From: an uncultured Cocleimonas sp.
Lineage (GTDB): Bacteria > Pseudomonadota > Gammaproteobacteria > Thiotrichales > Thiotrichaceae
Length of the DNA stretch: 36,552 nucleotides
Reading direction: 5' to 3'
Assembly: GCF_947495625.1 (NCBI RefSeq)
Contig: NZ_CANLZW010000045.1
Span: forward strand, 1-36,552
The position numbers were made by a program, and so were the translations under genes. This document shows positions 4,681-8,934 of the stretch, piece after piece. Under the pieces are notes generated by a model. The model made no database searches. It worked only from the letters and a program-made list of their open reading frames with translations, and was not told the origin of the DNA. Position 1 is the stretch's first letter, and every line of letters starts with the position of its first letter.

Positions 4681-5469
4681 TCAATAGGTCGCAATGTAGC
4701 CCATCACAGAAGATATTTTCATCCCAGTATCTTTGAGTTTTTCTAATACGGTTGTTTCCAATTCTTCAGTCGAAATCGTTGCAATAGGGCATGAGACACT
4801 AACCGCCGCAACGCATTGAGAATGTGAATTTACAATAGGAACAGCAATACACTGCAAACCCATCGAGTGTTCTTGCAAGTCCATGGCATAGCCACGCTCT
4901 TTACAGCGTATTAAGTCTTCTTCAAATTCAGTTACGTCTGTGAGCGTGTAAGGCGTGATGGGTTTTAATTTTATATTTTCCAGAATAGCATTCAATGATC
5001 CCTGTTCCAGATTCGACAACAATACTTTGCCGGATGCGGTTGAATAGAGGTCGGTTCGTTTTCCAATAAACGATGAACATTGCAACGCGCCAGGTTGGTG
5101 ATTGACATCCACTTTATCAATATATACCGCTTCGTCGTGATCTAGCACCAGCATGTGAACGGTCTGGTTTAGTTCATTGCTTAATTGCTCCAGATAGATA
5201 TGTCCTCTTTCACGCACATCCAGACGCTGCAAATAAGATTGACCAACTCTTACCAGATTAAGACCAATATCATATTTCCGTGAATCAGAATCTTGCTGCA
5301 AGTATCCGAATTCGGTCAAGGTCTTAATGTGGTGATGTAGCGATGATTTATTTAAATCTAAAGCTTCAGCGATTTCTTTGATTCTAAGTGGACGGTTTGC
5401 CATTCGAATCGTTTCAATAACACTAATTGCTTTGCCAATTGTATTCAATTTTGTATTTTTATCTTCCAT
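4681..5469 (-). CDS. IclR-family transcriptional regulator
   Basis: A 262-aa regulator. The N-terminal winged helix (about residues 8-70) contains IKEIAEALDLNKSSLHHHIK and YLQQDSDSRKYDIG, typical of IclR proteins. The C-terminal GAF-like effector domain includes YSTASGKVLLS, followed by the ERGYAMDLQEHSMGLQCIAVPI segment with its conserved EE/QE-G-C pattern. It is divergent from the TRAP operon across 328 bp. A perfect palindrome lies 5 bp upstream of its start codon, and a near-copy lies in the TRAP leader, so it probably represses itself and controls dctPQM. No convincing Shine-Dalgarno is present, because the palindrome occupies that space. The effector is presumably the TRAP substrate or a metabolite of it. 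Confidence 0.92.
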   Translation of the reverse strand: MEDKNTKLNTIGKAISVIETIRMANRPLRIKEIAEALDLNKSSLHHHIKTLTEFGYLQQDSDSRKYDIGLNLVRVGQSYLQRLDVRERGHIYLEQLSNELNQTVHMLVLDHDEAVYIDKVDVNHQPGALQCSSFIGKRTDLYSTASGKVLLSNLEQGSLNAILENIKLKPITPYTLTDVTEFEEDLIRCKERGYAMDLQEHSMGLQCIAVPIVNSHSQCVAAVSVSCPIATISTEELETTVLEKLKDTGMKISSVMGYIATY

Positions 5470-5473
5470 GGTT

Positions 5474-5490
5474 GTTTCATATTATGAAAT
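5474..5490. promoter_or_regulatory. candidate IclR operator O1
   Basis: GTTTCATATTATGAAAT: TTTCAT and ATGAAA are perfect inverted arms around ATT. It ends 5 bp before the iclR start codon, so binding would block iclR expression. It closely matches the site at 5595-5611 in length, arms and spacing. Confidence 0.65.
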
Positions 5491-5505
5491 GACGTGTGAT
5501 GTCAA

Positions 5506-5518
5506 GAAATTATATTTC
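5506..5518. promoter_or_regulatory. additional inverted half-sites between the two IclR-type operators
   Basis: GAAAT, TAT, ATTTC. It carries the same half-site words in the opposite order to the flanking operators. Its TTTCAT (5515-5520) starts 40 bp from the equivalent TTTCAT of O1, close to four helical turns. It could be an auxiliary half-site or chance in AT-rich DNA. Confidence 0.35.
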
Positions 5519-5536
5519 ATTATTAGAGTTTTTTTA

Positions 5537-5565
5537 TTGACAATTTTTCAATTCAGTTCTACTTT
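5537..5565 (+). promoter_or_regulatory. candidate sigma70 promoter for dctPQM
   Basis: A consensus -35 TTGACA lies at 5537-5542, followed after 17 bp by a weak -10 (TACTTT, 5560-5565). The inferred start near 5572 would put the second IclR-type palindrome just downstream, a repressing position. The -10 is poor, so activation or another hexamer is possible. Confidence 0.4.
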
Positions 5566-5594
5566 AACTTAAACGTTCAATACTAAGCAACGTA

Positions 5595-5611
5595 GTTTCA
5601 TAATACGAAAC
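5595..5611. promoter_or_regulatory. candidate IclR operator O2
   Basis: GTTTCATAATACGAAAC, a 17-bp palindrome with one internal mismatch. It resembles O1 at 5474-5490 and sits about 190 bp upstream of dctP, downstream of the candidate promoter. Confidence 0.6.
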
Positions 5612-5797
5612 AAATAATAAATGACATTGACCAACCACGGGTAGCGTCAAGTCAGGAGAATTTACCTATTTACTGAATATGAGTATTTATAAGAAGTAGA
5701 CGAACTGTTCGGAAACTTCGCATGCATGAAGCATTGAGTGAATAGGAAATTTAGGCGCAACTTGTTTTGAGTTGTCTTTTACTTCAAGGAGAAAGAA

Positions 5798-6781
5798 ATG
5801 AAAATGTTAAAAAAAATGGGTGTCGTGTTAACGGTGGCCCTGCTAACAAGCTTTAATGCTCAGGCAGCTGAAGAGTTAAAGTTTGCTCATGTATATGAGG
5901 TGAGTCACCCATTACACAAAGCCGCTGAAATGGCCGCTGAGAAAATAGAAAAAGCCACGGAAGGCCGCGTTAAGGTCAAGGTATTTCCGGCATCACAATT
6001 AGGTAAAGAAGTTGCAATCAACGAAGGTCTTTCTTTCGGTACTGTTGATGTTATTTATACGGGTGCGAGTTTTGCTGGTGCAGCGTATGGTCCAATTTCC
6101 ATGACTAATTTTCCATTTACATTAAGAGGATTAGAACATTGGAAAAACTATCGAGATAGTGATCTTTTTAAAGAGATTGCAGCAGGTTACGATAAAGCTA
6201 CGAATAATAAGTCGCGTGTCGTTGCACTTAATTATTACGGCGCGAGACATGTTACTTCTAACAAGCCAATTACAAAGCCTGACGACATGAAAAATTTGAA
6301 GATTAGAGTGCCTAATGCACCTGCATTTATTATTTTTCCGAAAGCGACAGGAGCAAATCCTACACCAATGGCATTTGCTGAAGTTTATCTAGCGTTGCAA
6401 CAAGGCGTGGTAGATGCACAGGAAAACCCGCTAACGACGATTAAAGCTAAGCGTTTTTATGAAGTTCAATCTAACATTAACTTAACAAGCCATATCGTAG
6501 ACTCGGTTGTGACTATTGTCTCGGAAAGAGCAATGGGCAAGTTAAGTGATGCCGATCAAAAAGTCGTTATCACTGAGTTAAAAGAAGCAGCTAAATGGAC
6601 GACTGAAGAAATTATCGCTGCGGAACAGACTTTAGTTGATTGGTTTAAGGGCAAAGGTATCACTGTAAATGACGTTGATCGTGCGCCATTTATCACCAAG
6701 GTTACTCCTTTACTTGATGATCCTAGTTTGCCATTTAGTGCTGAAGACTTGAAAAAGTTACAGGCGATTCCTGGTAATTAA
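5798..6781 (+). CDS. dctP: TRAP transporter solute-binding protein DctP
   Basis: A 327-aa periplasmic binding protein. A signal peptide (MKMLKKMGVVLTVALLTSFNAQA, cleaved near residue 23) precedes the mature start EELKFAHVYEVSHPLHKAA. The signature region LKIRVPNAP (the arginine that salt-bridges a carboxylate in most DctP proteins), followed by NPTPMAFAEVYLALQQGVVDAQENP, identifies the DctP family. A strong AAGGAGAAAG precedes the ATG. It heads the operon dctP-dctQ-dctM. The conserved arginine implies an organic-acid ligand, but the exact compound cannot be read. The downstream beta-hydroxyacid dehydrogenase makes a hydroxy acid a reasonable guess. Confidence 0.94.
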   Translation: MKMLKKMGVVLTVALLTSFNAQAAEELKFAHVYEVSHPLHKAAEMAAEKIEKATEGRVKVKVFPASQLGKEVAINEGLSFGTVDVIYTGASFAGAAYGPISMTNFPFTLRGLEHWKNYRDSDLFKEIAAGYDKATNNKSRVVALNYYGARHVTSNKPITKPDDMKNLKIRVPNAPAFIIFPKATGANPTPMAFAEVYLALQQGVVDAQENPLTTIKAKRFYEVQSNINLTSHIVDSVVTIVSERAMGKLSDADQKVVITELKEAAKWTTEEIIAAEQTLVDWFKGKGITVNDVDRAPFITKVTPLLDDPSLPFSAEDLKKLQAIPGN

Positions 6782-6788
6782 TTAAATT

Positions 6789-6948
6789 CCCCCCTTCTTT
6801 TTTATAGAGACCTTTGGCCTTTAGATAGCCCATGCAACGGTGTTTTGAATAAGCTGTTTTAAAACAAGGTCTCTAATACTAGTTCTCTAGTACCAAGACT
6901 CTAGTACCAAGACTCGAGTAAAAAGATTTTGATAAAAAGAAGGGGGGG
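6789..6948 (+). promoter_or_regulatory. dctP-dctQ spacer with pairing ends and a structured core
   Basis: The left end, CCCCCCTTCTTTTTTAT (6789-6805), is complementary to the right end, ATAAAAAGAAGGGGGGG (6932-6948), apart from one-base differences in run length. Inside, TAGAGACCTT (6805-6814) pairs perfectly with AAGGTCTCTA (6866-6875), sharing its first base with the end of the outer arm, and GTTTTAAAAC (6856-6865) is a palindrome. The right end is the only G-rich, Shine-Dalgarno-like stretch before dctQ. Closing the outer stem would bury it. This could set the lower dctQM:dctP ratio that TRAP operons need, or respond to a signal. Confidence 0.55.
6873..6928 (+). repeat. four degenerate 14-bp tandem repeats
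   Basis: Units at 6887-6900 and 6901-6914 are identical (CTAGTACCAAGACT). The flanking units 6873-6886 and 6915-6928 are diverged relatives in the same phase. They lie inside the dctP-dctQ spacer structure. Confidence 0.6.
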
Positions 6949-6967
6949 TATTAATACAACTATAATT

Positions 6968-7519
6968 ATGAATACAAAAAAAGAAAAGACGATTGAAGAA
7001 TTAGAAGCTGAGGCAGAGGTCAGTAATGATATATCCGATGTGAAATGGTTTGATATACCTGTCCTACTCATTTTCTTTGTTTTATTTGTCATTGTGGCAT
7101 TACAGTTTATTACTCGATACATCTTAAACGACAGTCTTTCCTGGACTGAAGAAATCGCCCGATACACGCTAATTATGTTAGCTTTTGTTGGTTCTGCCAG
7201 TAATGTACGAAAGCATAAACATATCTTTTTAGAATTTTTTTATCGGTATCTAAGTGCAAAAGCGGTAAAAGTAATTGTACTTATTGTTGAAGTATTAGTG
7301 GGTAGTTTTTTTGCTTATGTAGGTTGGCTATGTCTTCAACTTGCTAATGAAACTACGCAGAATATGGTATCCGTTAACCTACCCAAAAACATTGTTTATT
7401 ACATTGTTACTATAGCTTGTTTTATATCATTTATATTTGCCGTTTTTAATATTGTTAAATACCTAAAGTCTTCGGCAGAAGAGATTTATACAGAAAAATT
7501 AAATATTAAGGATCACTAA
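6968..7519 (+). CDS. dctQ: TRAP transporter small membrane subunit DctQ
   Basis: A 183-aa integral membrane protein with four predicted helices (about residues 25-50, 65-85, 100-130 and 143-165). The SWTEEIARYTLIMLAFVGSA segment between helices one and two is the DctQ hallmark. The ATG at 6968 was chosen. A TTG at 6929 would add 13 residues but is preceded by nothing resembling a ribosome-binding site. The G-rich run at 6942-6948 is 19 bases from the ATG, further than optimal, so initiation may be weak or regulated. The N-terminus is unusually charged (KKEKTIEELEAEAEV). The stop codon overlaps the dctM start (TAATG), implying translational coupling. Confidence 0.9.
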   Translation: MNTKKEKTIEELEAEAEVSNDISDVKWFDIPVLLIFFVLFVIVALQFITRYILNDSLSWTEEIARYTLIMLAFVGSASNVRKHKHIFLEFFYRYLSAKAVKVIVLIVEVLVGSFFAYVGWLCLQLANETTQNMVSVNLPKNIVYYIVTIACFISFIFAVFNIVKYLKSSAEEIYTEKLNIKDH

Positions 7520-8796
7520 TGGCTCTCACACTTTTATTTGTTACCTTAATTGTATTGCTTGTAATAGGGGCTCCAGTCGCTGTTGCACTTGGATTAGCTT
7601 CATTGGTCTATATTCTGATCGATGGATTACCAAACATTATTCTAGCGCATAATATGATTAACGGTATCGACAGCTTCCCACTTCTGGCCATTCCGTTTTT
7701 TATATTGGCTGGGCACTTAATGAACACCGCAGGCATAACCACCAAGATATTTGCCTTTGCCAGAGCAATGGTCGGATGGATGCATGGTGGTTTAGGCCAC
7801 GTTAATGTAGGTGCCAGCGTGATCTTTGCCGGCATGTCAGGCGCTGCTGTTGCTGATGCCGGTGGTTTAGGAAATATTGAAATCAAGGCGATGAGAGATG
7901 CCGATTATGATGATGAGTTTTCCGTAGGTATTACGGCTGCATCATCCATTATTGGTCCTATTATTCCGCCATCTCTGCCTTTAGTGATTTATGGTGTCAT
8001 GGCCTCGGTTTCTATCGGGGAGTTATTTGCAGCGGGTCTTATTCCAGGACTTTTGATGGCTCTGTCATTGATGATAATGATTGCCTATTACGCTAAAAAA
8101 CGAAACTATCCTAGAGATAGTCACTTCGAATTAGCCGTTCTGTCTCACACCTTTAAGAAAGCCATATTACCTTTGCTCACACCTGTGATTATTATCGGTG
8201 GTGTATCTACAGGTGTTTTTACACCGACTGAATCTGCAGTGGCTGCTGTTATGTACTCTTTATTCTTGGGGTTGGTTGTTTATAAAACACTGACTTGGCG
8301 ACATATCGTCAGAGTCTCCATGGATACTATCGAGACCACTGCCGCTATTTTGATGATTATTGCCAGTGCTGCGGTTTTTGCCTGGGTTTTGACGGCGAAT
8401 CAGGTCGCGCAACACTTGGGTGATTTTCTGTTAAACCTGTCAGACAATAAAACTGTTATTTTATTAATAATAATGGTTCTGGTTTTGCTAATCGGCATGT
8501 TCATGGAAACGATAGCTGCAATGACCATACTGGTTCCTATTCTTATCCCAATTACAACAGCAGTCGGTATAGATCCTGTGCATCTGGGTATTATTGTTGT
8601 TTTAAACTTAATGCTAGGTTTGCTTACACCTCCCGTGGGGATGGTGCTATACGTACTCTCTGATGTCTCCGGGGTCAGTTTCGAAAAATGTGTTAAATCA
8701 ACTGCACCTTTTTTAATTCCCCTTATCTTCGTTTTATTGTTAATCACATTTGTTCCGGAAATCGTTTTATACCTTCCTGAAATGTTTTACCGATAA
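7519..8796 (+). CDS. dctM: TRAP transporter large membrane subunit DctM
   Basis: A 425-aa protein with about 12 membrane segments, the sodium-coupled translocation subunit of a TRAP system. Family motifs seen are IPFFILAGHLMNTAGIT, the glycine-rich GASVIFAGMSGAAVADAGG, and IIGPIIPPSLPLVIYG. The second half repeats the pattern with GMFMETIAAMTILVPILIP and NLMLGLLTPPVGMVLYV. Length is normal for DctM. It overlaps dctQ by one base. The operon may continue into the dehydrogenase 138 bp downstream, but a tetranucleotide repeat fills much of that gap. Confidence 0.95.
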   Translation: MALTLLFVTLIVLLVIGAPVAVALGLASLVYILIDGLPNIILAHNMINGIDSFPLLAIPFFILAGHLMNTAGITTKIFAFARAMVGWMHGGLGHVNVGASVIFAGMSGAAVADAGGLGNIEIKAMRDADYDDEFSVGITAASSIIGPIIPPSLPLVIYGVMASVSIGELFAAGLIPGLLMALSLMIMIAYYAKKRNYPRDSHFELAVLSHTFKKAILPLLTPVIIIGGVSTGVFTPTESAVAAVMYSLFLGLVVYKTLTWRHIVRVSMDTIETTAAILMIIASAAVFAWVLTANQVAQHLGDFLLNLSDNKTVILLIIMVLVLLIGMFMETIAAMTILVPILIPITTAVGIDPVHLGIIVVLNLMLGLLTPPVGMVLYVLSDVSGVSFEKCVKSTAPFLIPLIFVLLLITFVPEIVLYLPEMFYR

Positions 8797-8853
8797 ACAC
8801 CAGATTAGAGCAACTTTATAAATTCACACAAAATAATCAATTATTTAACTAAT

Positions 8854-8912
<59 letters not shown>

Positions 8913-8934
8913 ATAAACAAGCAGGTCAAAAATT

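Follow-up and report, generated by a model that had tools for sequence, protein, structure and literature searches.

The dctPQM operon encodes a TRAP transporter that serves nutrient uptake in a marine bacterium. In an uncultured Cocleimonas sp., the last two genes of this operon are tightly joined, with dctM overlapping the dctQ stop codon and zero spacer between them, and the first two are set 186 nt apart. What does the gap between dctP and dctQ do? The question was pursued in a window of 36,552 nt, which is the whole stretch of DNA analyzed here (NZ_CANLZW010000045.1, GCF_947495625.1) and one contig of a 4.6-Mb genome.

The operon and its surroundings

All three genes of the operon lie on the forward strand. 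dctP (5798-6781, stop codon 6779-6781) encodes a TRAP solute-binding protein (SBP) of 327 amino acids (PF03480, E = 5.6e-68; TIGR00787 above its cut-off), and its start has an anti-Shine-Dalgarno (anti-SD) match of -8.5 kcal/mol. The small permease of 183 amino acids is encoded by dctQ (6968-7519; PF04290, E = 5.7e-25), whose N-terminus is in line with its homologs in an alignment and whose ATG has no Shine-Dalgarno (SD) sequence at 4-16 nt by an SD scan. The large permease is encoded by dctM (7519-8796; PF06808, E = 5.6e-131). Upstream of the operon, and divergent from dctP, is the gene of an IclR-type regulator (4681-5469, reverse strand). The DctP of the window is 99% identical to that of Cocleimonas flava DSM 24830.

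Several other features of the neighborhood were observed. The gap between the regulator gene and dctP (5470-5797) contains the palindromes TTTCATATTATGAAA and GTTTCATAATACGAAAC, which are present in C. flava too and look like operators of the IclR-type regulator. A possible small hairpin, GCAACTTGTTTTGAGTTGT (about 5755-5776), was seen by eye immediately 5' of the dctP SD site; it has a counterpart in C. flava, with base changes. Beyond the operon, a (TAAC) tract of 17.8 copies (8846-8916) lies between dctM and a 3-hydroxyisobutyrate-dehydrogenase-like gene (8935). At the matching place C. flava has about 2-3 copies. Given its size and its position upstream of a start codon, the tetranucleotide tract of the window may serve phase variation.

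A long-range clamp encloses the spacer

The two ends of the dctP-dctQ spacer are complementary, as an earlier note on this DNA had claimed, and the helix they form is 15 bp rather than 17 bp long, with 14 Watson-Crick pairs and one G-U pair. C6-TTC-T5 (6789-6802) and A5-GAA-G6 (6934-6947) supply the 14 Watson-Crick pairs and U6788-G6948 adds one more; U6803 opposes U6933, so the outer helix ends there. The 5' arm (U-C6-UUC-U5, 6788-6802) and the 3' arm (A5-GAA-G7, 6934-6948), both on the forward strand like all features of the spacer, were recovered by folding and by an inverted-repeat scan. A 2x2 internal loop separates this helix from a 5-bp A-U extension in the minimum free energy (MFE) structure, in which 6781-6785 pairs with 6951-6955, and the clamp thus starts at the final base of the dctP stop codon. 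The clamp of 15+5 bp encloses the entire gap with 131 nt between its arms. The sequence 3' of its stem is TATTAATACA, which is not a U-tract.

The interior features that the earlier note listed are present. These comprise a perfect inner stem of 10 bp (6805-6814 with 6866-6875), the 10-bp palindrome GTTTTAAAAC (6856-6865) and, in the clamp loop, four tandem units of 14 nt (6871-6926), two of which are imperfect. Units 1-4 match unit 2 at 9, 14, 14 and 11 of 14 positions, and Tandem Repeats Finder reports 2.6 copies at the 14-nt array. A small hairpin in the MFE structure, UACUAG-UUCU-CUAGUA (6877-6892), spans two of the units. A second palindrome, GTATTAATAC, lies at 6948-6957. Inside the 3' arm, an AAG7 tract (6940-6948) matches the anti-SD sequence and ends 19 nt upstream of the dctQ AUG; the AU-rich dctQ leader that follows (6949-6967) is about 0.6 unpaired.

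The clamp is a real and unusual RNA structure. The stretch 6780-6960 folds with an MFE of -56.7 kcal/mol (z = -5.45), and none of 200 shuffles was equally stable; the bare spacer gave z-scores of -5.3 and -4.3 in two runs. The longest perfect Watson-Crick stem in the spacer has 14 pairs, against a mean of 7.3 and a maximum of 12 in 300 shuffles. Across the 36.5 kb of the window, the clamp arms are the longest perfect inverted repeat with arms at most 250 nt apart. A search of the window against Rfam gave no match at the gathering score.

Conservation in Cocleimonas flava

The corresponding spacer of C. flava (L011) is 125 nt long, has both arms around a loop of 71 nt and folds with a z-score of -5.06. 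The two species have 18 of the 20 clamp pairs in common, one C-G pair has become U-A by a double change and one U-G pair is lost; all five pairs of the A-U extension are identical. Identity is 23/25 on the 5' side of the spacer and 29/33, with one gap, on the 3' side, compared with 44/69 and 60 gap positions in the interior. The inner 10-bp stem is absent from the C. flava spacer, which has no 14-nt tandem array either. From 6950 onward, 16 of 18 bases of the dctQ leader are identical.

How strongly are the arms conserved? Fourfold sites are identical between the two species at 102/145 positions in dctP, 36/60 in dctQ and 172/214 in dctM, and the intergenic region between the regulator gene and dctP at 290/326. 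The arms exceed the spacer interior and the fourfold sites of dctP and dctQ, and not all flanking DNA: their conservation is not above that of the regulator-dctP intergenic region and little above that of the dctM fourfold sites.

The exact arm pattern occurs only at dctPQM of the window genome and of C. flava among 63 genomes of the order; the remaining 61 gave no match to it. Searches for DctP gave matches in two of 12 genomes of the genus (E ≤ 1e-80), four of 63 of the order (E ≤ 1e-60) and two of 370 of the class (E ≤ 1e-100). Among the related loci, compact hairpins take the place of the clamp in L088 and in the 56-nt gap of L101, and the gaps of L089 and L090 measure 21 and 19 nt, which limits covariation to two species. 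Covariation in relatives was the check that the earlier note had proposed for the fold; pairing is indeed kept in C. flava with a compensatory change, and since the clamp is found in two species the covariation rests on one pair. It is genuine but thin.

Gaps between TRAP P and Q genes are regularly structured in the loci sampled

A survey of 64 DctP loci from the window genome, C. flava, three genomes of a related genus and more distant homologs placed the clamp among its counterparts. The loci comprised 19 of 77 homolog loci (L018, L028, L029 and the distant L033-L087 were left out); the window with L088-L090 and L101; nine of ten matches in the window genome, the tenth being the window's own dctP; 26 of the 30 loci listed for 60 matches (the other four, L112, L115, L118 and L119, were dropped as duplicates); and five of six C. 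flava stretches, as L134 duplicates L128. A DctQ-like gene lies downstream of dctP at 49 of these loci. The custom profile found no dctQ at the other 15, which include the proteobacterial L021, L023-L026, L031 and L032 (three with strong hairpins) and L117, which is near a contig end and was read at the wrong position. The Burkholderiales loci L021, L024 and L025 have terminator-like hairpins with T-runs just 3' of dctP. SD strength counted in the scoring by which dctQ starts were chosen; only those of the window and L011 were set by hand, at the conserved ATG.

Folding covered the 39 of the 49 P-Q gaps that span 50 nt or more, the other ten being shorter. The median z-score of the folded spacers is -3.5, and 32 of them fall below -2. 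By comparison, stretches of equal length fall below -2 in two of 37 cases when taken after dctQ (the window at -3.1, and L110) and in none of 39 when taken inside dctP; the after-dctQ control of the window is structured too, with z = -3.1 in one run and -1.9 in another. Paired Wilcoxon tests of the P-Q spacers gave p = 2.9e-11 against the after-dctQ and 3.6e-12 against the inside-dctP controls, for loci that are non-independent, several being orthologs or from one genome. TRAP P-Q gaps are regularly structured in this sample, which is a firmer claim than that for the single clamp. The earlier suggestion that the spacer greatly exceeds an ordinary operon gap in structure is borne out against generic controls and fails against other TRAP P-Q gaps, given the 32 structured spacers of 39.

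The form of the clamp, by comparison, is unusual, with long-range arms over 131 nt (71 in C. flava) and no U-tract. The longest stem is of nine pairs or more, with a loop no larger than 10 nt, in 30 of the 39 spacers. Loops above 30 nt occur in five spacers, all from Cocleimonas: the window (131), L011 (71), L094 (65), and L097 and L132 (54 each). A T-rich tail, with seven or eight T in ten bases around the stem end, is present in eight of the 39, which in this resemble leaky terminators.

L097, which belongs to a second TRAP operon of the window genome, is 95% identical to its ortholog in C. flava, L132. Both have a 16-bp long-range stem with a loop of 54 nt, which by eye encloses a short repeat-like stretch. 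In the related genus, three units containing TTGATT lie 3' of a 14-bp hairpin in the P-Q spacer of L088 (2467-2588). By eye they are 14 nt apart, which equals the spacing of the units in the window and may be chance.

Judged by titles and the beginnings of abstracts, none of the papers found mentions a stem-loop in a TRAP P-Q gap. A 1997 study of the C4-dicarboxylate TRAP operon of Rhodobacter capsulatus reportedly describes a dctP-dctQ stem-loop, which would share the gene junction in the founding TRAP operon. The available portions of two other papers have no bearing on P-Q spacers (PMC2964678; PMC12344293).

A proposed boundary element behind dctP

The preferred reading, given about even odds (a probability of roughly 0.5), is that the spacer acts as an RNA boundary element behind dctP that raises DctP over DctQM. 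The operon would be transcribed as a single polycistronic dctPQM mRNA, in which the spacer ends would zip into the 15+5 bp clamp directly 3' of the dctP stop codon. Following a putative endonucleolytic cut downstream of the clamp, the clamp and the inner hairpins would block 3'-5' exonucleases. The dctP segment would then outlast dctQM, leaving DctP in excess, and the SD-less start of dctQ may add to the imbalance between DctP and DctQM. The interior would be loosely constrained filler whose length varies, partly by repeat slippage, with the outer arms retained.

Structures behind a binding-protein gene are described in two studies as keeping the binding protein in excess (PMC9045158; PMC5927463). 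One means is to shield the mRNA upstream of the structure against 3'-5' exonucleases, with malE-malF as a precedent (PMC5927463), and the other is partial termination (PMC9045158). The clamp resembles the malE-malF element in being a stable RNA structure directly 3' of the binding-protein gene and ahead of the membrane-subunit genes, without a U-tract (PMC5927463). Both features are found in the window, where pairing runs from the dctP stop codon and the tail TATTAATACA follows the structure. It differs in belonging to a TRAP rather than an ABC transporter and in its long-range 15+5 bp pairing over 131 nt, and stabilization here is putative. A stem over a 131-nt loop should also form more slowly than a local hairpin, which counts against the reading.

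The internal terminators after SBP genes share with the clamp their position and a presumed purpose, more binding protein than translocator (PMC9045158). Unlike them, the clamp has no U-tract and has a very large loop, which makes termination unlikely and decay protection the better fit. Another comparison is the puf operon of R. capsulatus, in which an intercistronic hairpin is tied to segmental mRNA stability and subunit ratios (PMC6238624). The clamp is likewise intercistronic, but it lies in another operon and its function is putative. The clamp is best seen as a long-armed variant of an SBP/permease boundary element. The proposal of the earlier note that the spacer sets TRAP subunit ratios gains support by comparison, namely from the frequency of structured P-Q gaps and from the published precedents. 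Such an element would not be obligatory, since ten of the 49 gaps are below 50 nt, and the function shared among P-Q gaps could be attenuation instead of decay control, given the eight spacers with T-rich tails.

Alternative explanations

Could the clamp control translation of dctQ? The G-tract of the 3' arm is, as the earlier note had it, the only G-rich site before dctQ: no other strong anti-SD match occurs in this spacer or in that of C. flava, and it reaches -10.9 kcal/mol per 8-mer in the window, where the next match outside the arm scores -3.3. The whole 3' arm scores -12.7 kcal/mol in the window and -10.8 in C. flava. That the fold hides a ribosome site holds to the extent that the G-tract is buried, with an unpaired probability of 0.02 (0.01 in C. 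flava). Distance and the open AUG speak against it. The last G lies 19 nt from the dctQ AUG in the window and 20 nt in C. flava, beyond the usual SD spacing range, and with the clamp closed the AUG region is 0.75-0.81 unpaired in the window and 0.69 in C. flava. The case for a mechanism that hides a ribosome site is weak.

A more elaborate version is that a ribosome terminating on dctP frees the G-tract, which the 3' arm otherwise buries, and so couples dctQ translation to that of dctP. The clamp begins at the dctP stop codon in both species, the G-tract is the sole strong anti-SD match of both spacers, and the window and C. flava hold the two dctQ starts of 49 without an SD at 4-16 nt, a contrast biased by the selection of the other 47 starts, for which SD strength counted toward the score. 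Ribosome footprints of the sizes generally known were modeled at the dctP stop codon. Blocking to 6791 raised the unpaired probability of the G-tract from 0.02 to 0.20, blocking to 6794 raised it to 0.59 and blocking the whole 5' arm gave 0.35; in C. flava the G-tract opened to 0.07 only, and blocking the entire 5' arm brought it to 0.29. In addition to the distance of the G-tract and the accessible dctQ start, the G-C pairs of any clamp necessarily place Gs on one side, and of 28 other ORFs of the window that were checked, 10 have SD-less first starts, one of them, the regulator gene (4681-5469), lacking an SD at all listed starts. Coupling is an unlikely explanation. Bolder still is the idea of a ribosome-sensing switch that closes on the dctP stop codon and holds the only G-tract of the SD-less dctQ, so that dctQM would be translated in step with ribosomes leaving dctP. 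This is a long shot; if true, the 186-nt gap could be resized by slippage of the repeat array without breaking the switch.

An internal transcription attenuator, a leaky intrinsic terminator after dctP like those in ABC importer operons, would produce the same excess of DctP by different means. Hairpins with T-rich tails do occur in other TRAP P-Q spacers (e.g., L105, L111, L114, L123 and L126), and among the internal terminators that follow SBP genes in Clostridia some have no distinct U-tract (PMC9045158). In the window, by contrast, TATTAATACA is not a U-tract, and a GC-rich hairpin with a U-tract is therefore not what the spacer holds. Loops of 71-131 nt are also unlike those of terminators, and a pattern scan confined to loops of 3-8 nt found no intrinsic terminator in the spacer. 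Attenuation at this site is distinctly unlikely.

Another possibility is RNase III processing at the clamp, which would separate dctP from dctQM in the operon mRNA. The duplex that RNase III requires is close in size to 15+5 bp, and such a duplex exists in both species. The 2x2 loop breaks it up, however, and most other sampled spacers have shorter, compact stems, which makes processing of this kind quite improbable.

The spacer, which is large and structured, might give rise to a small regulatory RNA, as SBP-permease operons do with SroC (gltIJKL) and MalH (malEFG) (PMC9438474). Against this, its 3' end lacks a terminator U-tail, the interior, where a seed site would be expected, is poorly conserved and Rfam has no match, and a small RNA is very improbable here. 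That the spacer is a now functionless relic of a small mobile inverted-repeat element is barely credible: terminal inverted repeats do flank a variable interior, but the genome has no second significant copy (best other E = 0.2), the clamp pattern is confined to dctPQM in two of 63 genomes, and both species have it at the identical location with a compensatory change. A miniature inverted-repeat transposable element (MITE) or dispersed repeat was rejected on copy number, with one significant copy in the genome.

Implications for TRAP transporter operons

RNA elements that follow the SBP gene have been identified as the source of binding-protein excess in ABC importers. The survey suggests that the TRAP operons sampled often bear such an element at the equivalent place (32 of 39 spacers that span 50 nt or more). 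The clamp of Cocleimonas would be an extreme form of it, with very long-range pairing, and its two short arms, which can be altered, make it a simple test case.
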